Shown one piece after another: positions 4,752 through 22,512 of a DNA stretch of 51,309 nucleotides. The stretch spans positions 8,544 to 59,852 of the forward strand of contig NZ_JAQVZX010000005.1 in NCBI RefSeq assembly GCF_028707975.1, given 5' to 3'. The stretch is from Syntrophomonas sp. GTDB taxonomy: Bacteria; Bacillota; Syntrophomonadia; Syntrophomonadales; Syntrophomonadaceae. Numbering within the stretch: position 1 is the first letter of the stretch; every line of letters starts with the position of its first letter. The notes beneath the pieces are model-generated. The model saw only the letters and a program-made list of their open reading frames with translations, was not told the DNA's origin and ran no database searches. The position numbers and the translations under genes are program-made.

Positions 4752-6089
4752 TCAAAAGCCCGCTAGATAAGTGCTGTATTCCAAGGGCCGGCGAAAGGTG
4801 TTTTTTACGATTACCTGTGAAACTTCACTTTCCGTAGTTTTACGGGGCTTGGAATTGACTTCTATAAGCCAGGGTGCGCCATTTTTATCCAAACCGATGT
4901 CCAGGCCCAATTCTCCATAATTGGCCTGGCTAATTTTCTCCAGGGCTTCAGCTACCTGCTGGCAGAGCAGTTTTATTTGCTGGTTCTTTTCTTCAACCAG
5001 TGAACTTTTCTTATACAGATACTTGAGTACATGTTTGGTTTTTTCCACTCTGCCACCGCTGGCCAGGTTGGAAACGCTGCTTCCACGGGCAGCCACTCGT
5101 ACAAAACTCTTACTGATCTGCCAGACTCCCTGGGCGTTCTTTTGATAGACAATACGCAGATCAAAGGGTAAACCCTTATAGCTGGCCAGGAATATCCCCT
5201 GCTGAGCTATATAAGCCCTTTTGCCCCGATAAATTTTGGTCTTTTTCATTAAATCCGCAACACTGTCGGCCGAACTCCTAATTTTCCTTCTGCCGTTGGT
5301 AACAAAGTGCAAGGAGCCTTTTTCATCGCGCTTTACTTTTATTATTCCCTTCCCCAGGCTGCCATTCGCTGGTTTCAGGTAAAGCAATTCGTACTTGCTC
5401 AGCAAATCCTTAAGATTCTCTGCTGTCAGCACCCGGGTTTCGGGTATATAAGGATGCAAACGGGGATCATTAATCAGGATTTGATATACTCTCCACTTAT
5501 TTAAAAAAGATGGATTGAAGTATTTTAAATGGGGTAGTTGGCATAGTTTGTTTTTGGTATTCCTAATCAATGATCGTGCTTCACTGCTACGGCTTGGAAT
5601 GCGGTCATATACAACATCAGGCAAAGGATAAATATGGGGTATCCAGAACCCCCGTTCCGGAGATATTTGCTTGTAAACATAGCCCCTGACAGTGTTATTT
5701 GACCAGTTTATGGATCCTGGGGTAAAGACATATACCTGACCAGCCAGGGTCTTGCTGATATTGCTGAGAAATATTAGTTCAGCCTGCATACTCAATGGGT
5801 CATGTTCTCCCCGGTTGGGTAAAAAGGTGGAAAGTATGCCTATGGTCGGTCCCAGGTGAATAATATTTTCCCGCTGATCATAACGCAATTTCATGCGCTT
5901 TCGTTTTTTTATATAAAGGGCTCGAGCCAGAGATGGGGAAAGCATATATGATTTTTTCTTAAGATCCTGTATTATCAATTCACTGTTAACCAGCAGACTA
6001 CCAACCCTGACTTTTATTTCACTTTGAGCCGGCAAAGCAATTTTCTTCATCAAAACCTTGGAAATATAGATTCTCCCAACAGTATTCAT
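4752..6089 (-). CDS. ATP-grasp protein of the YheC/YheD spore-coat family (second of pair)
   Basis: A 445-residue protein. The N-terminal ~170 residues form the YheC/YheD-specific domain (GPTIGILSTF, WSNNTVRGYVY, FWIPHIYPLPDVVYDR). The C-terminal half is ATP-grasp: LYLKPANGSLGKGIIKV, then GELGLDIGLDKNGAPW and LIEVNSKPRK, which supplies metal-binding Glu and Asn. In Bacillus, YheC and YheD are associated with the spore coat. The substrate ligated is not known. AGAGGAG precedes the ATG, 31 bp after its paralogue, so the two are probably one transcript. The downstream side is free of genes for ~110 bp. Confidence 0.88.
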   Translation of the reverse strand: MNTVGRIYISKVLMKKIALPAQSEIKVRVGSLLVNSELIIQDLKKKSYMLSPSLARALYIKKRKRMKLRYDQRENIIHLGPTIGILSTFLPNRGEHDPLSMQAELIFLSNISKTLAGQVYVFTPGSINWSNNTVRGYVYKQISPERGFWIPHIYPLPDVVYDRIPSRSSEARSLIRNTKNKLCQLPHLKYFNPSFLNKWRVYQILINDPRLHPYIPETRVLTAENLKDLLSKYELLYLKPANGSLGKGIIKVKRDEKGSLHFVTNGRRKIRSSADSVADLMKKTKIYRGKRAYIAQQGIFLASYKGLPFDLRIVYQKNAQGVWQISKSFVRVAARGSSVSNLASGGRVEKTKHVLKYLYKKSSLVEEKNQQIKLLCQQVAEALEKISQANYGELGLDIGLDKNGAPWLIEVNSKPRKTTESEVSQVIVKNTFRRPLEYSTYLAGF

Positions 6090-6120
6090 AAAAAAACTCC
6101 TCTAAAGTAATAAACTAAAA

Positions 6121-7473
6121 CTAGAATCCGGCCAGGTAGCGGCAATATAACATAGGCCTCTTGACTGAAAGCAGGCGGGTATTCTTTTCCCCAATCAAAG
6201 TAAATACCTGCCGGGCGGGTCTTAAATTAGCTTCAATGAACCAGACCTTTCCTCCTTTATCAATACCTATATCCACCCCCATCTCTCCACAGGGTCCTAT
6301 GGTCCCTTCCAGAGTACGGCAGGCTTCCACTGCTACGAAGCGCAATCTCTCAATTATTTCCTGTTGTTTTTCCTTATCGGGAAACTTTTCTTTCAAGGTA
6401 GTCTCCAACTTCCGCCCACTTCCCCCCGCTGATATATTACTGGTAATGGAACCGGGTCTGCCCACGCGACAAGCCATACCAGTAACATCCCAATTCCCGC
6501 TATGATCCTTTTGGACCAGAATCCTGACATCAATAATATTACCCGCCGACTGCAGGAGATTTATCTGTTTCTGCGCTATATAAGTACGATTTCCCATTAC
6601 CGGTTTCAGACAACTCCGTAATTGGGCCAGGCTGGAGGCGCTTCCCTTGATTAAGCGCCCATTTAATTGGTACTGATACTGGTAGGAAGTATCATTTTTC
6701 TTTTTTACCACCCGAACGATATTTCTTCCCTGGGAGCCTGCTATCGGTTTGAGATAAACCGCATTGTATTTTTTTATCATTCTATCCACCTGGCTGAAAC
6801 TATTTACCAGACGGGTATCTGGAATATAGGGAACCAGACTGGGATTCTGGGTAATTACCCGGTAGGTCTGCCATTTACCAACAAGTGCGGGATTTAAGAA
6901 TCTTACGCCCATATTCTCCAATTTCTTTCTGATGTTCAGCTTCACCGGGGAATAAGCTTTTTCTCGCGGGTAGATAACATCAGGAAGGGGAAAGTGCCCT
7001 TGAATCCAACCATTTTCCCCCCAGCTATAGCCATGAATGCTCTTGCTTTTCCAGTCAATACTAAAAGGACTAAAGGCAAAACATATTTGTCCCAGGGCCT
7101 GGCCACTTTGGAGAAGCTGCTTAATAAAGAAACTCTGACCTCCAAACGGCTTTTTGGAAATTCGGGAGGTCTCAGCCATGATTCCCACCACCGGCCCAAT
7201 CTGAATTATCGTACCCCGGCCACTAACCGCATATTTGCGGTTGGGATAAATATGCAGCTTCCGCGCCAGGTTTGCATTAATTATGATGGTGTTGCGGCTT
7301 TTTTCCGCCGCATTTACTTTTAAATCCATATTCATATGGGTCTGGCCCACCTGTAATTTTATGTTCTGCTCCTCTCCCATACCCAGGTGGGCAACCAGAT
7401 CACTGCTCATTATTAATTGCTTTTCATCCTGCTTAGATCTGTATTTAACAACTGGCATTATAAAATCTTTCAT
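6121..7473 (-). CDS. ATP-grasp protein of the YheC/YheD spore-coat family (first of pair)
   Basis: A 450-residue paralogue of the next gene with the same two-part layout. The N-terminal domain has GPVVGIMAETSR, IDWKSKSIHGYSW and HFPLPDVIYPR. The ATP-grasp part has VYLKPIAGSQGRNIVRV, GEMGVDIGIDKGGKVWFIEA and ANLRPARQ. The Asn and Glu expected to hold the nucleotide metal are present, so both copies look catalytically competent. Start choice is uncertain: the ATG at 7473 lacks a strong ribosome site, and an ATG five codons later is an alternative. Expression during sporulation is expected from the family, but no sporulation promoter could be identified. Confidence 0.87.
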   Translation of the reverse strand: MKDFIMPVVKYRSKQDEKQLIMSSDLVAHLGMGEEQNIKLQVGQTHMNMDLKVNAAEKSRNTIIINANLARKLHIYPNRKYAVSGRGTIIQIGPVVGIMAETSRISKKPFGGQSFFIKQLLQSGQALGQICFAFSPFSIDWKSKSIHGYSWGENGWIQGHFPLPDVIYPREKAYSPVKLNIRKKLENMGVRFLNPALVGKWQTYRVITQNPSLVPYIPDTRLVNSFSQVDRMIKKYNAVYLKPIAGSQGRNIVRVVKKKNDTSYQYQYQLNGRLIKGSASSLAQLRSCLKPVMGNRTYIAQKQINLLQSAGNIIDVRILVQKDHSGNWDVTGMACRVGRPGSITSNISAGGSGRKLETTLKEKFPDKEKQQEIIERLRFVAVEACRTLEGTIGPCGEMGVDIGIDKGGKVWFIEANLRPARQVFTLIGEKNTRLLSVKRPMLYCRYLAGF

Positions 7474-7713: not shown

Positions 7714-8166
7714 ATGAAGCTTATCAGTGCATGTCTCTGCGGAATTAACTGCAAATACAACGGGGGTAATAATTTTGATCCCTATTTTTTTGATTTGTGG
7801 AAAAACAAGCAGCTTATTCCCGTTTGCCCGGAGGAATTGGGAGGCTTGTCAACTCCCCGCTGCCCGGCGGAAATAATAGGCGGAAGCGGAGAAGATGTAC
7901 TCCGGAATCAGGCCCGGGTAATAGATGCAACCGGTAATGACCTGAGCCCATATTTTGTACAGGGAGCCTATAGAGCTCTGGAGCTCGCTCGTTTGGGCGG
8001 AGTCCGTTCGGCCATCCTTAAAAGCCGCAGTCCTTCCTGCGGAGCAGGAAGCATCTATGATGGCAGCTTTAATTCACGACTACGCTCCGGTGATGGAGTA
8101 AGCACCGCTCTATTGAAACAAAATGGTATAAAGGTTATAAGCGATGAAGATTTTGATAAAGTTTAG
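7714..8166 (+). CDS. DUF523 protein, TudS-like iron-sulfur desulfidase candidate
   Basis: A 150-residue protein covering a complete DUF523 domain. Conserved cysteines are in SACLCGINCKYNG near the N-terminus, in TPRCPAE, and in the SRSPSCGAG segment toward the C-terminus. In characterised members (TudS, and RudS with an extra domain) cysteines of this domain hold a [4Fe-4S] cluster that removes sulfur from thiouracil or tRNA thiouridine. That activity for this protein is an inference from the family. AGGAGAG precedes the ATG. It lies 15 bp from the PP-loop gene, so the two are almost certainly co-transcribed. Confidence 0.85.
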   Translation: MKLISACLCGINCKYNGGNNFDPYFFDLWKNKQLIPVCPEELGGLSTPRCPAEIIGGSGEDVLRNQARVIDATGNDLSPYFVQGAYRALELARLGGVRSAILKSRSPSCGAGSIYDGSFNSRLRSGDGVSTALLKQNGIKVISDEDFDKV

Positions 8167-8181
8167 GAAAGGAAGAGTATA

Positions 8182-9168
8182 TTGAAAGCAGTATGTCTTT
8201 TTTCCGGTGGCTTGGATTCTCAATTGGCCGCCGCTTTGGTTAAAAATCAGGGTGTGACTGTCATCGGGGTTAATTTCTCCAGCCCCTTTTTCGGAGCGAA
8301 CCGCGCCACTCACCTGGCTGCCAAAGCACTGGGAATTCAATTATTTGTCCTGGATACCGGACAGGAATACATAGAAGAGGTACTAAAAACCCCGGTTTAT
8401 GGTTATGGTAAAAATTTAAATCCCTGTATTGACTGCCATGGTTTTATGCTTAGAAAAGCCGGAGAATTTATGCAAAAGCTTGAAGCCAGTTTCCTGATTA
8501 GCGGTGAGGTTTTGGGACAAAGGCCTATGAGTCAGAATCGCTCCGCTCTTAATGCGGTAGACAAACTATCAGGCTTTCGGAGTCTGATACTCAGGCCTCT
8601 TTCGGCTCGGCTGCTGCCAGCGACTATCCCGGAAATAGAAGGCTGGGTTGACCGTGAGCAACTGATGGACATAAGCGGTCGTGGTAGAACCCGGCAGATT
8701 GAATTAGCTGAAAAACTAGGGATTTTTGACTACCCCACGCCTGCCGGGGGCTGTTTGTTGACAGAAGCCAATTTTAGCCGCCGTCTGAAGAAAATGTTGG
8801 AAGTGAAACCGGAGCTGGAACCAGGGGAAATGGAAATCCTAAAACTGGGACGCCATTTTTATCTGGGGGAAAGAACCTTGCTGGCTGTAGGTAGGAATCA
8901 CTCGGAAAATGAAAGCATTCAAAAAATCTCCCGGGGAGACGATTATCTTTTCAAAGTTCTGGATCGTCCCGGACCTCTGGGCCTCTTACGGGGATTTGCT
9001 GGTCTAAAAGCAGATGAAATCAACCAGGCCGCCGCCATAGTAGCCAGGTACAGTGATGCCAGGAAAGAAAATACGGCCCAGGTTAAATTTTTTAAGCCAG
9101 GGAGCGAGGCTTTTGAGACCATAAGTGTAACGCCGTTACCCCCAGCTGATGTTCCCGCCAGCATCTGA
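8182..9168 (+). CDS. PP-loop ATPase of ThiI/MnmA type with a C-terminal RNA-binding-like domain
   Basis: A 328-residue protein. The PP-loop motif SGGLDSQ is at residues ~8-14, used to adenylate a nucleobase before sulfur insertion. NPCIDCHGFM gives a CxxC typical of thiolation enzymes, followed by ISGEVLGQRPMSQ and PTPAGGCLLT. The last ~110 residues (KLGRHFYLGERTLLAVGRN) resemble the NFACT-R-type RNA-binding module known to be fused to ThiI-like proteins in some bacteria. It starts at TTG (8182) after AGGAAAGGAAGAG. It is shorter than ThiI and lacks the THUMP domain. A role in tRNA 2- or 4-thiouridine formation is likely, but the target base is unknown. Confidence 0.82.
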   Translation: MKAVCLFSGGLDSQLAAALVKNQGVTVIGVNFSSPFFGANRATHLAAKALGIQLFVLDTGQEYIEEVLKTPVYGYGKNLNPCIDCHGFMLRKAGEFMQKLEASFLISGEVLGQRPMSQNRSALNAVDKLSGFRSLILRPLSARLLPATIPEIEGWVDREQLMDISGRGRTRQIELAEKLGIFDYPTPAGGCLLTEANFSRRLKKMLEVKPELEPGEMEILKLGRHFYLGERTLLAVGRNHSENESIQKISRGDDYLFKVLDRPGPLGLLRGFAGLKADEINQAAAIVARYSDARKENTAQVKFFKPGSEAFETISVTPLPPADVPASI

Positions 9169-12691: not shown

Positions 12692-13594
12692 TTATTTATA
12701 TACTTCTTTCAAGAGAGTCTCCTTACGCAGGTCAGCACAATTGCATCTTTGATTATGGGGCAAGGTTCTAAAGAAATCAAAGACCGTTCTAGCCAGGACA
12801 TAGCTTTCGTTAAAAAATATATCGGTAAGTTCTTCATGCTCCCACGGGCTAACAATTCCTTCGGCATAGTTTACCACCAGGTACAACCCCGCGTAACAAG
12901 CCCCAATCTCCCGCGCCAGGTATACTTCAGGGCAAATACTCTGCCCCACTATGTCACCCCCGGCCATTTTGAAAAACGCCACTTCTGATGGACTCTCAAA
13001 ATGTCGACCATCGGTATTAACATATATTCCCCGGTCGAAGACCCGATGCTTCCAACTTTTCTCCAGCAAGGCCACCAGGTGTTCCCTCATATCTCCACAA
13101 AGAGCCTTACGCATTATTAAAAGGTAGCGTTCATCTAATCCTACATCTTTCCGCATGGAAAAGTCCATATAATCATGGGGTATAACTAGATCCCGAGGTT
13201 TGAGCAGGTGATTTACTGCACCTACCCCGCCTTCAGCCAGTACTCTTTTAACCCCTGCTTGCCGCAATACCCAAAAAACCTGACGCGAAGCATCGGCCCT
13301 GCTGATCCCGCTTCGCCAGCCATGCATCCGGCAGCTTAAGACTCTCCGGTCTTCTTCCGCTCCTTTAATATTAATCAGCTTGAACTCGGGGCTCAGACCA
13401 TATGGAGTAGAAAAAATCAGCCCTTTTTCCAGAACCTGAACATAATCCAAGCTCAGACTTTCTGGAACCTCAATACTTAAACTGCTGGATCCGCCGATAA
13501 AGGCCAGCTCACTGCAAGGAACTTCCACCTGCCTATCTAACTCCTCTCTGACATTACATATTGATAATATTATATTAATCCCCATACCCAGCAC
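12692..13594 (-). CDS. Nucleoside phosphorylase of the MTAP/PNP family, mqn-associated
   Basis: A 300-residue protein resembling methylthioadenosine/purine nucleoside phosphorylases. It has a glycine-rich start (AFIGGSSS), SCRMHGWRSG at the place of the family's HGRxH phosphate-binding segment, and a VLAEGGVGAVNHLLKPRDLV stretch, plus MAGGDIVGQS and CPEVYLAREIGACYAGL near the end. The sequence is divergent at the expected phosphate-site residues. It is the last gene of a menaquinone futalosine cluster, so it may be the enzyme that cleaves futalosine or aminofutalosine (the MqnB step). That is an inference from position. The N-terminal ~22 residues do not look like family sequence, and a GTG at 13528 is a possible true start. 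Confidence 0.72.
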   Translation of the reverse strand: MLGMGINIILSICNVREELDRQVEVPCSELAFIGGSSSLSIEVPESLSLDYVQVLEKGLIFSTPYGLSPEFKLINIKGAEEDRRVLSCRMHGWRSGISRADASRQVFWVLRQAGVKRVLAEGGVGAVNHLLKPRDLVIPHDYMDFSMRKDVGLDERYLLIMRKALCGDMREHLVALLEKSWKHRVFDRGIYVNTDGRHFESPSEVAFFKMAGGDIVGQSICPEVYLAREIGACYAGLYLVVNYAEGIVSPWEHEELTDIFFNESYVLARTVFDFFRTLPHNQRCNCADLRKETLLKEVYK

Positions 13595-13630
13595 TAGTGC
13601 TGATGATAAACGTTAAAGCAGGAAGGATAG

Positions 13631-14701
13631 TTAAAACACCTCTAAAATCCGATATTCAGTATCCCGTAGAGCAGGAATTCTACCTGCTCCGCTTATAAGA
13701 TCAATCATTTCTTCTTTCTTCATTTTGTATTCCAGACCTGCCGAACGAACCACATTTTCTTCTATCATAATACTGCCCAGGTCATCAGCGCCAAAAAACA
13801 ATGAAACCTGCCCGACTCGATCCCCCTGGGTAACCCAGGAGCCCTGGATGTGAACAAAATTATCCAGGTAGAGCCGGGACAAAGCCAGAAATTTCAGGTA
13901 CTGCACCGGATACATTTTGCGCCCCATCAGTTCATTATTACCCGGTTGATAAGTCCAGGGGATAAATGCTCTGAACCCTCCAGTTTCGTCCTGCAAATCT
14001 CTTATCATCCGCAGGTGAGCAACCCGGTGTTCAAGCTGGTCGACACTCCCCATCATCATGGTAGCGGTCGTCTCCATACCGATTTCATGGGCGATTTTCA
14101 TTACTTCCAGCCATTGCCGGCTGCTAATCTTATTGGGACTAATCTCTTTACGCACCTCATCATGCAAAACCTCGGCCCCGCCGCCAGGAAGTGAATCCAG
14201 ACCGGCCGCTTTTAGGCGCAAGAGTGTTTCTCTTATATTTAGCCCGGAAATTCGAGCAATAAAAGCAATCTCTGGAGCGGTCAAAGAATGAATACAAATA
14301 TCATAACGGGCTTTGATACTGCTAAACATTTCTTCAAAATACCTTATATCCAGATCTTCGTTAAGCCCACCCTGAATCATAAGCTGGGTAGCTCCCAGCT
14401 TTATGGCTTCATCAATCTTGGCAAAAAGGCTTTCCTGGCTTATCACATAAGCATCTGCATCCTCCTTGTCCCGGTAAAAGGCACAAAAGCGGCATTTACA
14501 TGAACAAATATTGCTGTAGTTGATATTCCGGTCAATAATAAAAGTGGCCTGGTTATTGCCAAACCTTTCTTCCCTTTTCAGGTTAGCGGCCTGTCCTATC
14601 TCCAGAAGCTCTCCTTGCTCATACAATAGCAGGAAATCTTTATCGCTCATGCGCCGCCCATCCATAATCCCCTTTATTCGCTGCTTAATAGTCACTGACA
14701 C
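13631..14701 (-). CDS. mqnC: Cyclic dehypoxanthinyl futalosine synthase
   Basis: A 356-residue radical SAM enzyme closing the second ring of the menaquinone precursor in the futalosine pathway. The cluster-binding cysteines are in CSCKCRFCAFYR (CxxxCxxC). Other conserved blocks are MIQGGLNEDL, DSLPGGGAEVL, TTATMMMG and the C-terminal GADDLGSIMIEENVV, which distinguishes MqnC from its relatives. Length is normal. It lies 24 bp after mqnA and 36 bp before the phosphorylase-like gene. Confidence 0.92.
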   Translation of the reverse strand: MSVTIKQRIKGIMDGRRMSDKDFLLLYEQGELLEIGQAANLKREERFGNNQATFIIDRNINYSNICSCKCRFCAFYRDKEDADAYVISQESLFAKIDEAIKLGATQLMIQGGLNEDLDIRYFEEMFSSIKARYDICIHSLTAPEIAFIARISGLNIRETLLRLKAAGLDSLPGGGAEVLHDEVRKEISPNKISSRQWLEVMKIAHEIGMETTATMMMGSVDQLEHRVAHLRMIRDLQDETGGFRAFIPWTYQPGNNELMGRKMYPVQYLKFLALSRLYLDNFVHIQGSWVTQGDRVGQVSLFFGADDLGSIMIEENVVRSAGLEYKMKKEEMIDLISGAGRIPALRDTEYRILEVF

Positions 14702-14725
14702 CTCTCTCCGCCTTCCGTCCTCCGC

Positions 14726-15553
14726 TCAAATATCCAGTATTTCCAGTGGCGGCACCTCATCTAAAAGACCCTGATTTTTCGCCTGGCGATAGTATTCCAG
14801 TAAACCTTCCTGTTTGCTGAAATCAAAGTCAAAGCGTAAACAGCGAAAATAGTCTACCAAATAATCGGCGCCAAAATCTTCCCATTGTGAGGCTTTTTCT
14901 GCCACATCCCGAACATTTTCCAGGCTAAATTTTATCGATTCGGTAAAGGTCTGCTTAATAATTTTTAACTGCTCTCGGTTCTTGCCGGCAAAGTCCTTTC
15001 GAATCGCCCAGAGCGCAAATACCATAGGCAAGCCAGTAAACTTCTTCCATTCCTCACCCAGGTCATAAATGTACAGGCGATCCTGGTTCTTGTAACGAGC
15101 TCTCAGAGCATCATCCCCAATCAGTAGTGCTGCATCAGCTTCCAAAAGCATGGCTCCCAGTTCTGGAGCAGAGGAAAAGTACTCCGGTTGAATATTGTAG
15201 TAGCGGGCTAGAATCACACGCAGCAGGGCCTGCGAAGTAGCAGAAGTATTGGTAAGGGCCACTTTCTTATGATGCAGTTCATTTATGGGTACTTTGGAAA
15301 AAAAGTAAATGCTCTTCACTTCTCCGTCACAACTTATCGATATGTCGGGCATAAGCACATAATCCTGGTAATTCCGGGCATACGCTATGGAAGGTATAGG
15401 GGCCAAATCCAGGAGATTTTCCTGGAGCATCCGGTTAAGATCAGAAGGATTACCTTTAATTAAATCAATCTCCAATAGAAATTTTTTCTCTATCAAACCA
15501 TAAAACAAAGGAAAACAATTAATAAATTGTATATGGCCAACTCTCGGTCGCAT
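14726..15553 (-). CDS. mqnA: Chorismate dehydratase
   Basis: A 275-residue MqnA-family protein that dehydrates chorismate to 3-enolpyruvylbenzoate at the start of the futalosine route to menaquinone. The N-terminal block RVGHIQFINCFPLFYGL, the SIAYAR segment and LTNTSATSQALLRVIL are typical of the periplasmic-binding-protein-like fold. The reading frame is open 31 codons further upstream. The ATG at 15553 after AAGGGAG gives the family's normal length and N-terminus. It sits between mqnE and mqnC. Confidence 0.92.
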   Translation of the reverse strand: MRPRVGHIQFINCFPLFYGLIEKKFLLEIDLIKGNPSDLNRMLQENLLDLAPIPSIAYARNYQDYVLMPDISISCDGEVKSIYFFSKVPINELHHKKVALTNTSATSQALLRVILARYYNIQPEYFSSAPELGAMLLEADAALLIGDDALRARYKNQDRLYIYDLGEEWKKFTGLPMVFALWAIRKDFAGKNREQLKIIKQTFTESIKFSLENVRDVAEKASQWEDFGADYLVDYFRCLRFDFDFSKQEGLLEYYRQAKNQGLLDEVPPLEILDI

Positions 15554-15682
15554 AAGCTTAGACTCCCTTCTGAAAAACTGTAATAACGGCGGGGGTCTGT
15601 TCCTGCCGTTCCAGGTATAAGGCATTTGCGTTCGCAATTGCTTCATAAAACCCTTTTTGTTAAAAAGTGCTGCAATAAAACC

Positions 15683-16780
15683 CTAAAACTCACGGATAAT
15701 GTTATATAAGGTATCTCTCTCCGTTGGGATACATCCAGCCTCTCTGATTATGTGTACCAGATCTTCTTTGCTGATCCCCTTCTCTGTACTGGCTCCAGCA
15801 GCATGCATTATCCTTTCCTCCACGACAGTCCCGTCAATATCATCGGCTCCAAATTCCAAAGCAATCTGAGCCACGGGTAGCCCTAGCATAATCCAAAAGG
15901 CTTTTATATGCTCTATATTGTCCAACAGGAGACGTGAAATGGCAATGGTCTTCAAATCATCAACCGCTCCGGTTCTCTTTAGGTGGCTGATTTTGGTATT
16001 TTCCGGAAGGAAGGGTAAAGGGATAAATGCCTGAAAACCAGGGGCCTCATCCTGCAAATCACGCAGGCGAATCAGGTGGTCAACCCTATCTTCAATCTTT
16101 TCAATGTGACCATAGAGCATGGTACAATTGGTCTTTATTTCCATCCGGTGTGCAATTCGGTGAACATCTAACCATTCATCACTGCTAGCTTTGCGCGGGC
16201 ACAGTTCCTGGCGTATATTATCATTGAGGATTTCAGCGCCTCCACCTGGAATTGAACCGAGTCCTGCATCCTTCAAATGTTGAAGTACCTCACGCACCGA
16301 TAGCCCACTGATTTTGGAGAAATGAAAAATCTCCACCGCGGTAAATGCCTGAATGTGAATATCAGGGAAGGCCTGATGCAGGCGGGAAATCACCTCAAGA
16401 TAGTAATCAAGTCCCATATGGGGGTGCATAGCACTTACTACATGGAATTCCGTAATTCCATGGTCAACTGCTTCAGCCCCGTAGGCAAAAGCCTCTTCCG
16501 GGCTCATTAAGTAAGGGCCTGCACTGCCATTTTCGTCTACTCCAAAAGCACAGAATTGACAGCGCGATACGCAGATATTGGTAAGGTTTATGTGCCGGTT
16601 TACATTGAAATAGACCCGGGGACCTGATATTAAATGTTTTTTGGAGCGGGCCATTTCCCCGATAGCCAATAAATCTTTACTTTGGTATAAGTAAATTCCG
16701 TCTTCCCGCGATAGCCTTTCCCGGTGATTAATCTTATTCCTTATTTCTTCTAATTTATTATTCATGATTTTATTATTCAT
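15683..16780 (-). CDS. mqnE: Aminodeoxyfutalosine synthase
   Basis: A ~365-residue radical SAM enzyme joining the MqnA product to SAM-derived adenosine. It has CVSRCQFCAFG (CxxxCxxC), FHVVSAMHPHMGLDYY, GSIPGGGAEIL, TNCTMLYGH and the C-terminal GADDIDGTVVEERIMHAAGA that marks MqnE. The start is ambiguous. The ATG at 16780 is chosen, but an ATG four codons upstream hugs the AAAGGA site and another lies five codons downstream. The two near-identical ATGAATAATAAA copies (16754-16780) look like a small tandem duplication at the start. It is the first gene of the mqn run. Confidence 0.9.
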   Translation of the reverse strand: MNNKIMNNKLEEIRNKINHRERLSREDGIYLYQSKDLLAIGEMARSKKHLISGPRVYFNVNRHINLTNICVSRCQFCAFGVDENGSAGPYLMSPEEAFAYGAEAVDHGITEFHVVSAMHPHMGLDYYLEVISRLHQAFPDIHIQAFTAVEIFHFSKISGLSVREVLQHLKDAGLGSIPGGGAEILNDNIRQELCPRKASSDEWLDVHRIAHRMEIKTNCTMLYGHIEKIEDRVDHLIRLRDLQDEAPGFQAFIPLPFLPENTKISHLKRTGAVDDLKTIAISRLLLDNIEHIKAFWIMLGLPVAQIALEFGADDIDGTVVEERIMHAAGASTEKGISKEDLVHIIREAGCIPTERDTLYNIIREF

Positions 16781-16927
16781 GATTATATCCATTCCTTTCG
16801 CTTCGCTCAGGCACAAAACGTAATGAAAGAATTTCTTTCAGACTTCATCTCCCTGTTACTGCTTAGGACAATTATAACAGAAACTTAACTTCAAGGAAGC
16901 TTATCCGCCCTTTCTATATTTGATTAG

Positions 16928-20379: not shown

Positions 20380-22428
20380 CTATTTTTCCTTTTCTTCTTT
20401 TTCCTGTTTGGCTTTTTCTATAATTTTTTCAGCGTTTTGGCCTGGCACTTCTTCGTAGTTGGAAAACTCCATTTTAAACTTGCCGCGCCCCTGGGTCATA
20501 GACTTCAAATCAATAGTATAACGCGCCATTTCTGCCAGGGGAACCTGAGCCTTAATAAGCTGTTTCTTCCCTGCCGGTTCCATTCCCTGTACTCTTCCCC
20601 GCCGGCTGTTTAAATCCCCAATTATATCACCCATATATGCTTCGGGAACCTCTATCTGCACATTCATAATCGGCTCCAGCAAAACCGGTTTGGCAGATTC
20701 TATACCTTTTCTAAATGCTAATCGAGCTGCCATTTTAAAGGCCATTTCGGAAGAGTCCACAGAGTGATAGGAACCATCAAATAAGGTAGCCTTGATATTG
20801 GTTACCGGATAGCCTGCCAGCACCCCTTCTTCCAAGGCTTCAATCAGTCCTTTTTCCACCGCTGGAAAATACTGGCGCGGTACCGAACCTCCAAAAACAT
20901 TCTCGGCAAACTCAAAATCTCCCTCGTAATGGGGTTCGAATTTTACGAATACATGACCGTATTGCCCATGCCCACCACTCTGTTTTTTATGTTTACCTTC
21001 AGCCTCTACCGTAGCCTTAATGGTTTCCCGATAGGGAATCCTCATTTCCCGGCTGATAACATCCACACCAAATTTGCGAGACAACTTGTCCAAAACAATA
21101 TCCACATGAGTATCACCCATGGCCCTCAAAATTGTTTGCCGGGTTTCAACATTCTTTTCTACTCGGATAGTGGGATCTTCCTCAAGAAGCCTCTGCAAAG
21201 CTCCGCTCAACTTATCCTCATCGCCTTTGCTCCGAGGCTCAATGGCCATACCCAGCGTAGGCTCGGGAAACTCAATAGGATCCATAATTACTGCTTGGGC
21301 TTTGACCGTGAGCGTGTCTCCAGTTGAAGTAACCGAGAGTTTGGCCACCGCTGCGATATCACCAGCATGTATCTCCGGAACCGAAGCCTGTTCTTTGCCG
21401 GTCATTATCAATAGCTGGGTAATTTTTTCGTCCTTTTCCTTGTTGGCATTATATACTACGGAATCAGCTTTTAAATGGCCGGTAAACAAACGAAACATGG
21501 TCAGCCTTCCTATATAGGGATCAGCAATAGTCTTAAACACTTGAGCCACGATGGCTTCATTTTCCACATCTTTACCAGCTACCAGAGGATTGCTCTCCGG
21601 AGCAGGTCCACAGTTCACTATAAAATCCATCAAGGGGCTGATACCAATATTGTTTAATGCTGATCCACAGAAGACAAAAACCGACAAGCCGTTGACTGCT
21701 GCTTCTTTAATCCCTTCCATAATCTCCTCGTCATTAAGCTCTTCTCCCTCCAGATACTTGCTCAGCAAGTCATCATTGGCCTCAGCAGCAGCTTCAATCA
21801 GGGCTTCTTTAAAGCTCTCTGCCTCATCCATCATATCAGCGGGAATTTCTTCTTCGCTGATTTTCCCGTTCCCAGATTCAAATACTAGAGCCTTCATTTT
21901 TAAAAGGTCAATTATCCCTTTGAAGTTCTCCGCAGTTCCAATAGGTATTTGTACCGGAACAATATTATCAGCAAATCTGTTTTTCATATCATCCAGCACT
22001 TTGTAGAAATCAGCATTTTCACGATCCATTTTATTTATGAAGGCGATCTTGGGAACCGCAGGATAGTCTTCCCAAACGACTTCTGTTTGCACTTCCACAC
22101 CGGCAGTGGCAGAGAGTAGTACCAGCATGGAATCTGCTACCCGCATAGTACCGGTCACTTCAAAGTAGAAGTCACTGTAACCGGGAGTATCCAGAATATT
22201 TATTTTATGATCCCTGTATTCACAAGGCACCAAAGCTGTGCTAATGGTTATTTTCTTTTTAATTTCCTCGGGATAAAAATCCGCTACAGTGTTGCCGTCA
22301 TCAACCTTGCCCAGTCTCTTGGTAGCCCCTGTATTATAAATCATTGCTTCTGCCAGCGAAGTTTTTCCGGTTCCTCCGTGACCTACTAAAGCAATATTGC
22401 GGATTTTACTACTAGGGTAAACCTTCAT
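20380..22428 (-). CDS. EF-G-like translational GTPase (EF-G-2 group)
   Basis: A 682-residue five-domain translational GTPase. The P-loop is GHGGTGKTSL, switch II is DTPGYSDF, and NKMD and GSA are present. The C-terminal half has SGGHGQYGHVFV and GRVQGMEP. The P-loop and the Tyr at the switch II His position differ from the housekeeping factor (GHIDAGKTT, DTPGHVDF) and match the EF-G-2 paralogues of Thermus and mycobacteria. These are GTPases with unclear cellular roles. GAGGAGG precedes the ATG at 22428, chosen over a start ten codons upstream. It ends in a Lys/Glu-rich tail. It should not be taken as the main fusA. Confidence 0.9.
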   Translation of the reverse strand: MKVYPSSKIRNIALVGHGGTGKTSLAEAMIYNTGATKRLGKVDDGNTVADFYPEEIKKKITISTALVPCEYRDHKINILDTPGYSDFYFEVTGTMRVADSMLVLLSATAGVEVQTEVVWEDYPAVPKIAFINKMDRENADFYKVLDDMKNRFADNIVPVQIPIGTAENFKGIIDLLKMKALVFESGNGKISEEEIPADMMDEAESFKEALIEAAAEANDDLLSKYLEGEELNDEEIMEGIKEAAVNGLSVFVFCGSALNNIGISPLMDFIVNCGPAPESNPLVAGKDVENEAIVAQVFKTIADPYIGRLTMFRLFTGHLKADSVVYNANKEKDEKITQLLIMTGKEQASVPEIHAGDIAAVAKLSVTSTGDTLTVKAQAVIMDPIEFPEPTLGMAIEPRSKGDEDKLSGALQRLLEEDPTIRVEKNVETRQTILRAMGDTHVDIVLDKLSRKFGVDVISREMRIPYRETIKATVEAEGKHKKQSGGHGQYGHVFVKFEPHYEGDFEFAENVFGGSVPRQYFPAVEKGLIEALEEGVLAGYPVTNIKATLFDGSYHSVDSSEMAFKMAARLAFRKGIESAKPVLLEPIMNVQIEVPEAYMGDIIGDLNSRRGRVQGMEPAGKKQLIKAQVPLAEMARYTIDLKSMTQGRGKFKMEFSNYEEVPGQNAEKIIEKAKQEKEEKEK

Positions 22429-22512
22429 CAAACAACCTCCTCGTTTATTAAAAGTCAACTGTAAAAATGGTACTATACTTTAATAAAACTATCAAAGCTT
22501 TTTACTAAAATA

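Follow-up and report, generated by a model that had tools for sequence, protein, structure and literature searches.

A candidate desulfidase gene and a candidate tRNA thiolase gene lie side by side in the window, the whole stretch of 51,309 nucleotides analysed here, which comes from a draft genome of Syntrophomonas sp. (2.36 Mb, 177 contigs, 88% complete). The first gene (7714..8166, plus strand, ATG start) is tudS-like and, as judged from PF04463 and the TudS structure 6z92, encodes a stand-alone DUF523/TudS desulfidase of 150 aa. The second (8182..9168, plus strand, TTG start) encodes a protein of 328 aa that joins a PP-loop domain to an NFACT-R domain and that is proposed, from its motifs, Pfam matches and fold, to be a [4Fe-4S]-type tRNA 4-thiouridine (s4U) synthase. 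Between the two is an intergenic gap of 15 bp (8167..8181, plus strand), the spacing already given in an earlier note on this DNA, with a purine-rich, ribosome-binding-site-like stretch before the TTG. Directly upstream of the pair, and divergent from it, are two tandem YheC/D-type ATP-grasp genes (4752-7473, minus strand; PF14398, 274 and 271 bits). Downstream of the PP-loop/NFACT-R gene, also on the minus strand, are a GDSL hydrolase gene and a gene for a 917-aa protein, presumably UPF0182-like. Because the flanking genes on either side are on the minus strand and the pair itself is on the plus strand, the layout suggests a two-gene transcription unit whose members would be co-transcribed.

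The 150-aa protein matches PF04463 (2-thiour_desulf) over residues 3-146 with 141.7 bits (cut-off 34.7; E 2.1e-41). PF04463 stands alone in it, as no other Pfam family was found at E up to 1; the protein shares the TudS domain with RudS, the TudS-DUF1722 protein of tRNA s4U de-modification, but has no DUF1722 fused to it. By sequence, its nearest solved structure is TudS 6z92 (E 6.3e-22). The cluster ligands of TudS_A are Cys10, Cys43 and Cys104, and its catalytic residues are Glu45, Ser101 and Ser103, according to PMC10611767. In the 6z92 alignment these correspond to the putative ligands Cys7, Cys38 and Cys109 and the putative catalytic residues Glu40, Ser106 and Ser108 of the window protein, which bears out the earlier description of a stand-alone DUF523 protein with its cysteines intact. 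With a domain that spans its whole length and with ligand and catalytic residues present, the protein can be placed, by alignment, among the stand-alone TudS enzymes. The three ligand cysteines and the positions of Glu45 and Ser101 are kept in 51/51 aligned TudS rows of the lineage, and that of Ser103 in 50/51 (52 rows were aligned, one being gapped at those columns). One difference from TudS concerns Arg17, the proposed phosphate contact, which is Lys in the window protein; the lineage has 44 K, 5 T and 2 R at this position (n=51). Another is the operon with a thiolase, none being mentioned for known TudS in the literature consulted.

The second protein carries three short motifs that are conserved across an alignment of 51 family members (A2) from many phyla, with 44-63% identity to the window protein. 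These are the PP-loop ATP pyrophosphatase motif SGGLDSQ (residues 8-14; 8203..8223, plus strand), with S8, G9, G10, L11 and D12 invariant; NPCIDCH (residues 80-86; 8419..8439, plus strand), with the putative ligands Cys82 and Cys85 and with N80, P81, C82, D84 and C85 invariant; and GGCLLT (residues 189-194; 8746..8763, plus strand), with Cys191 as the third putative ligand and G189, G190, C191, L193 and T194 invariant. The GEV...RP.SQ positions are likewise invariant in the alignment. Among the best 80 of at least 566 related loci, the NPC.DC motif occurs in 79/80 and the GGC motif in 80/80. Conserved as they are, the three cysteines Cys82, Cys85 and Cys191 could ligate a cluster, as in the [4Fe-4S] tRNA thiolases of the TtuI, NcsA, TtuA and TtcA kind. 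The C-terminus is an NFACT-R_2 RNA-binding domain (PF18297, residues 223-324; 8848..9153, plus strand) at 71.5 bits against a cut-off of 26.9. Both halves of the previous description, a PP-loop/CxxC protein (SGGLDS plus CIDC at residues 82-85) and a putative RNA-binding C-terminus, are confirmed here. PF18297 matches 51/51 members of the alignment, the ThiI domain PF02568 matches 50/51 and the MnmA domain PF03054 matches 49/51.

The protein falls below the model cut-offs of ThiI, MnmA and LarE. It scores 33.8 bits with the ThiI model TIGR00342 (cut-off 264.5), 38.4 bits with the MnmA model TIGR00420 (cut-off 236.95) and 13.6 bits with the LarE equivalog (cut-off 150), and none of six family proteins reaches the cut-off of any NCBIfam model. 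Its Pfam score is slightly higher for the MnmA domain (37.3 bits) than for ThiI (34.1 bits). Neither THUMP, characteristic of ThiI, nor the MnmA middle and C-terminal domains PF20258/PF20259 were found in it at Pfam E up to 1. A profile of the 51 members run against PDB sequences had ThiI 2c5s as its best match (E 1.1e-11), followed by MnmA 9hln (2e-8). With MnmA, the protein shares the PP-loop and MnmA-type cysteine sites, its NPC..C site aligning to 9hln; the other site presumably has an MnmA counterpart as well. The closest named relative among the best 80 of at least 566 loci is from Syntrophomonas wolfei subsp. methylbutyratica (L032; 90% identity), and a single scan of viral contigs with the window protein found no relative. 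Three genomes (G120, G274 and G333) of the phylum of a Desulfuromonas metagenome-assembled genome (MAG) have two separate PP-loop/NFACT-R matches each, and four more (G067, G071, G089 and G091) probably have two copies, to judge from two similar ThiI-model matches in each. Since some genomes hold two separate matches, the family may have split functions. In 26 genomes from the same phylum as a Nautiliaceae MAG (e.g. G365 and G391), the family match is interrupted at model position ~130, in frames of 350-406 aa; by sequence, the extra segment would be an insertion within the PP-loop domain that is specific to this lineage.

The AlphaFold2 model of the 328-aa protein is of high confidence (mean pLDDT 95.3, pTM 0.89), and in VIA-align comparisons its residues 1-221 match PP-loop folds and residues 221-328 match NFACT-R. 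The top match is ThiI 4kr6 (Z 17.2, rmsd 2.1 A, 160 residues, 28% identity), and the next two are also ThiI (4kr7, Z 16.4; 2c5s, Z 16.3). The leading matches to other proteins are LarE (Z 15.6), which trails the second and third ThiI matches by less than 1 Z unit, [4Fe-4S] LarE (14.8) and MnmA 2hma (13.4). The predicted PP-loop domain would therefore have a ThiI fold by VIA-align, although Foldseek, ranked by E-value, puts MnmA 2hma first and ThiI 2c5s 27th. The predicted C-terminal domain resembles FbpS 5h3w (Z 14.8) and RqcH 8s1u (Z 14.5). RqcH, a ribosome quality-control factor, is ~600 aa long, unlike the 328-aa window protein; its NFACT-R is poorly resolved and lies near the A-site finger, as reported in PMC8012679. 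In the draft genome, another frame, of 607 aa (G000:C17), gives a weak NFACT-R_2 match (25.5 bits) and is taken as RqcH by its length. The genome also has a separate, full MnmA gene (335 bits), and no ThiI was found in it over the TIGR00342 cut-off.

The extent of the pairing was assessed in 46 genomes of the order Syntrophomonadales, the source genome included, which cover three families. Short NFACT-R_2 proteins were present in 43/46 (matches in frames of ~500-720 aa being excluded as RqcH-type, by length alone), PF04463 was present in 44/46, and both were present in 42. In all 41 genomes with both genes on one contig, these were adjacent, on the same strand and with TudS first, an adjacency far beyond chance in the order. 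In the 42nd (G002), the genes are at two contig ends. Of the other genomes, in G016 TudS precedes a PP-loop start that is truncated where the contig ends, the contigs of G009 and G022 stop at the gene, and neither gene is present in G021, which is 67% complete. Across 63 measured loci, with some genomes represented twice, the TudS stop is separated from the start that follows by -14 to +106 nt, apart from a single value of 309, and in many of these loci the two frames overlap. There is exactly one PF04463 copy in 41/46 genomes of the order, with two in three genomes and none in two, so that one desulfidase and one s4U-synthase candidate share one operon as a rule.

Beyond the order sample, a contig scan for PP-loop relatives supplied loci from many lineages, the best 80 of at least 566 being used. 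Among these, TudS is upstream in 36/38 Syntrophomonadaceae-like loci (L032-L069); the remaining two loci begin at a contig end. None of the distant loci (0/42), whose flanks extend up to 6 kb and are in several cases much shorter, was matched by an HMM made from TudS sequences of the order. These loci comprise deltaproteobacterial, Nautiliaceae and other campylobacterial, Cloacimonadota, Omnitrophota, Nitrospinota, actinobacterial and Desulfurobacteriaceae loci, along with one Bathyarchaeota record, and no conserved functional neighbours beyond local synteny were found in them. Adjacency to TudS is a trait of one lineage and was seen only there. The conserved neighbourhood that the earlier note made a condition of its proposal exists within the order (41/41, three families) but does not extend to the 42 distant loci. 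The survey for fusions, which the note had also suggested, yielded no convincing case. In a Syntrophomonas palmitatica draft (L049, 5482-6945), TudS and the PP-loop protein share one 488-aa frame, the only single-frame case; since the frames join inside a T run at the junction, this is probably a sequencing (homopolymer) frameshift and not a fusion. Outside the order, there are two MAGs in which the PP-loop/NFACT-R gene immediately follows a full-length MnmA gene in the same orientation (L088, 4813-6972; L093, 4840-6972).

The distribution of the family is nearly complementary to that of canonical ThiI, defined as TIGR00342 over its cut-off and compared by Fisher tests that ignore kinship. Among 61 relatives, ThiI was present in 3/43 genomes with the PP-loop/NFACT-R protein (G006, G019 and G040) versus 10/18 without it (p 9e-5); G016, G021 and G022 were counted as lacking the family, and G016 has a truncated copy, which weakens the contrast. 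In a relative represented by a single contig (G001, 98% complete), the family is present and no ThiI passes the cut-off. A larger sample came from the phylum of the Desulfuromonas MAG (G098), presumably Desulfobacterota, where the family was present in 222 of 247 genomes and ThiI in 16. There, 219 genomes have the family only, 13 have ThiI only, three have both and 12 have neither, i.e. ThiI in 3/222 with the family versus 13/25 without it (p 1.7e-12), five genomes (G312, G330, G332, G335 and G346) being taken as family-lacking from gaps in the numbering. Likewise, in the phylum of the Nautiliaceae MAG (G069), presumably Campylobacterota, the family was present in 109 of 121 genomes, ThiI in eight, both in none and neither in four, so that ThiI occurs in 0/109 genomes with the family versus 8/12 without it (p 5.5e-10). 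Among the 42 genomes of the distant loci (L070-L111), at least four of which are also in the phylum samples, ThiI was present in one (G082). Seven genomes have both proteins (G006, G019, G040, G082, G140, G156 and G254). In a tree of 38 ThiI proteins, the eight from the G069 phylum fall into a single clade, and those from the 13 family-lacking members of the G098 phylum fall into at least two groups by well-supported branches, or three changes by parsimony; the recurrent exclusion therefore rests on few independent events. In sum, the PP-loop/NFACT-R family shows a near-exclusion with ThiI that recurs in three phyla and reflects few independent replacements.

A further link to s4U comes from RudS, which removes s4U from tRNA according to PMC11417400. 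Its DUF1722 domain was counted in the G098 phylum at E up to 1e-5, with some matches partial and whether or not fused to TudS, and was found in 122/247 genomes. Of these, 115 have the family without ThiI, six have ThiI and one has neither; put the other way, DUF1722 occurs in 115/219 family-only genomes, 6/16 ThiI genomes and 1/12 genomes with neither. It accompanies a candidate synthase of any kind in 121/235 genomes, versus 1/12 without one (p 0.005). The authors of PMC11417400 describe two groups of RudS-bearing organisms without an E. coli-type ThiI; they had no explanation for RudS in such organisms and suggest either differently built ThiI homologues or no s4U. The PP-loop/NFACT-R family fits the suggestion of ThiI homologues with a different architecture. 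Additionally, the s4U pathway is said in a review (PMC9957541) not to be known in some archaea.

The locus is probably a two-gene s4U operon, in which the PP-loop/NFACT-R protein would be an s4U synthase that replaces ThiI and TudS would salvage 4-thio-UMP. The PP-loop would adenylate a tRNA uridine, most likely U8, with NFACT-R binding the tRNA in place of the THUMP of ThiI. Sulfur from sulfide would be held on a putative [4Fe-4S] cluster (Cys82, Cys85 and Cys191) and passed to the tRNA. The protein may take the place of ThiI both in the Syntrophomonadales and in other phyla. Stand-alone TudS, in turn, could desulfurate 4-thio-UMP from degraded tRNA to UMP and sulfide. The synthase half of this scheme has precedents. 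As outlined in PMC10067955, [4Fe-4S] thiolases with three ligands probably attach sulfur to the free iron and then hand it to the adenylated base, using sulfide or a sulfur donor. The archaeal [4Fe-4S] U8-tRNA sulfurase (TtuI; the ThiI of M. maripaludis and P. furiosus) is a cluster-type s4U synthase, as the window protein putatively is, and the M. maripaludis enzyme makes s4U with sulfide as donor; unlike the window protein with its NFACT-R, however, TtuI is counted among the THUMP proteins (both points as given in PMC9957541). ThiI itself is the top VIA-align match of the PP-loop domain and has a near-complementary distribution, and the window protein differs from it in having a C-terminal NFACT-R and a CxxC plus Cys motif and in lacking THUMP. 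Since the need for and role of a cluster are disputed even for MnmA, as indicated in PMC11784392, a persulfide mechanism is also possible for the PP-loop/NFACT-R protein.

The assignment to s4U, rather than to the MnmA product, is preferred because the genome has its own MnmA. The earlier suggestion of a ThiI/MnmA-type partner therefore holds for the tRNA-thiolase type of the PP-loop protein but narrows to a ThiI stand-in, and replacement of MnmA was ruled out by the full MnmA gene. As for TudS, it prefers 4-thio-UMP as substrate and works in the opposite direction via a [4Fe-5S] state, and its deletion from P. putida, where it is stand-alone, left tRNA s4U unchanged, all as reported in PMC10611767; overexpression of a stand-alone TudS in E. 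coli had no significant effect on tRNA s4U, as described in PMC11417400. Because of these data, the operon most likely makes tRNA s4U and recovers a uracil nucleotide, along with sulfide, from the product of its degradation. Of the two roles that the earlier note had offered, a reversible switch or a salvage loop, salvage of 4-thio-UMP is the better one, and a tRNA switch is not favoured. Against the s4U operon stand the slight Pfam edge and Foldseek rank of MnmA, the closeness of LarE to ThiI in Z, the genomes with neither gene (12/247 and 4/121) or with both (seven), and the restriction of the adjacency to one lineage.

Several other explanations have been weighed against this one. It is possible, but rather doubtful, that the PP-loop/NFACT-R protein thiolates another base or position of RNA (s2U or s2C) and that the exclusion of ThiI is a coincidence of lineage. 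Its sequence is about as similar to MnmA as to ThiI, Foldseek ranks MnmA first, the gene directly follows a true MnmA in the two MAGs noted above, and independent replacements of ThiI are few. However, the source genome has its separate MnmA, VIA-align places ThiI on top, the exclusion recurs in three phyla, and the desulfidases point to s4U, TudS by its preference for 4-thio-UMP (as stated in PMC10611767) and RudS by its action on s4U (as stated in PMC11417400). A role on a substrate other than RNA, such as a LarE-like reaction on a nucleotide cofactor with TudS adjacent by accident, is highly improbable; the structural scores of LarE and [4Fe-4S] LarE speak for it, but NFACT-R is present in every one of the 51 members scanned, the LarE equivalog score is far below its cut-off, and the near-exclusion with ThiI counts against it as well.

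The switch, whereby TudS would strip s4U from intact tRNA thiolated by the PP-loop enzyme and the operon would set the level of thiolation, is unlikely. The tight spacing and frequent overlap of the frames agree with it, as does the activity of the related RudS on tRNA s4U (reported in PMC11417400), and with a single PF04463 copy in 41/46 genomes of the order there is no second desulfidase at hand. Yet the window TudS lacks DUF1722, the domain that distinguishes RudS, and stand-alone TudS was without effect on tRNA s4U in both of the published experiments cited above (P. putida in PMC10611767, E. coli in PMC11417400). There is also little to recommend the notion that the adjacency is mere conservation of gene order within one order, implying no shared function. 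The flanks are indeed fairly conserved too, with the UPF0182-like gene in 23/28 and the GDSL gene in 20/28 loci that have 4.5 kb of downstream sequence and the YheC/D gene in 20/31 loci that have 4.5 kb of upstream sequence, and the 42 loci outside the lineage (among the best 80 of at least 566) show no adjacency. TudS, however, is kept in 31/31 of the same upstream set, and the pair is therefore kept more strictly than its surroundings. Moreover, the spacing is near zero, the chemistry of the two proteins matches, and, where a neighbouring gene was picked, it is on the opposite strand in 30/35 loci upstream and 25/33 downstream.

If the s4U operon is the correct explanation, a function would be gained for a gene present in 222/247 and 109/121 genomes of two large phylum samples, and one operon would pair the making and the recycling of one tRNA base. 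The family is a concrete candidate for a missing s4U enzyme, on which the evidence from distribution, fold and operon agrees. A broader and more speculative extension is that the PP-loop/NFACT-R family amounts to an additional class of s4U synthase, one that fills the place of ThiI in three or more bacterial phyla and perhaps also in archaea that lack ThiI. The TudS of the Syntrophomonadales would then either return the sulfide that it frees, via [4Fe-5S], to the cluster of the synthase or also edit s4U in tRNA. Were this so, thiolation would be balanced inside one operon and the cycle closed. A literature search of titles and the starts of abstracts, with most subscription journals outside its range, found no paper that assigns the PP-loop/NFACT-R family to s4U and none on NFACT-R together with ThiI. 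In a 2014 paper on NFACT domains, Burroughs and Aravind reportedly described NFACT-R joined to ThiI-like domains and predicted that it serves RNA thiolation, which makes it likely that the architecture was already known. To this the present analysis adds that the family and ThiI nearly exclude each other in three phyla, that its distribution matches that of RudS, and that it forms a probable operon with TudS.

Two other parts of the window deserve mention. On the minus strand at 12695-16816, there is a menaquinone gene cluster, presumably of the futalosine type, that encodes a PNP/UDP phosphorylase, a PF02621 protein and two radical SAM proteins of the CofH/MqnC type. Further along, also on the minus strand, 20383-22458 encodes an elongation-factor-G-like protein of 692 aa, whose GTPase match extends over 267 residues for 185 profile positions, which suggests an insertion within that domain match.
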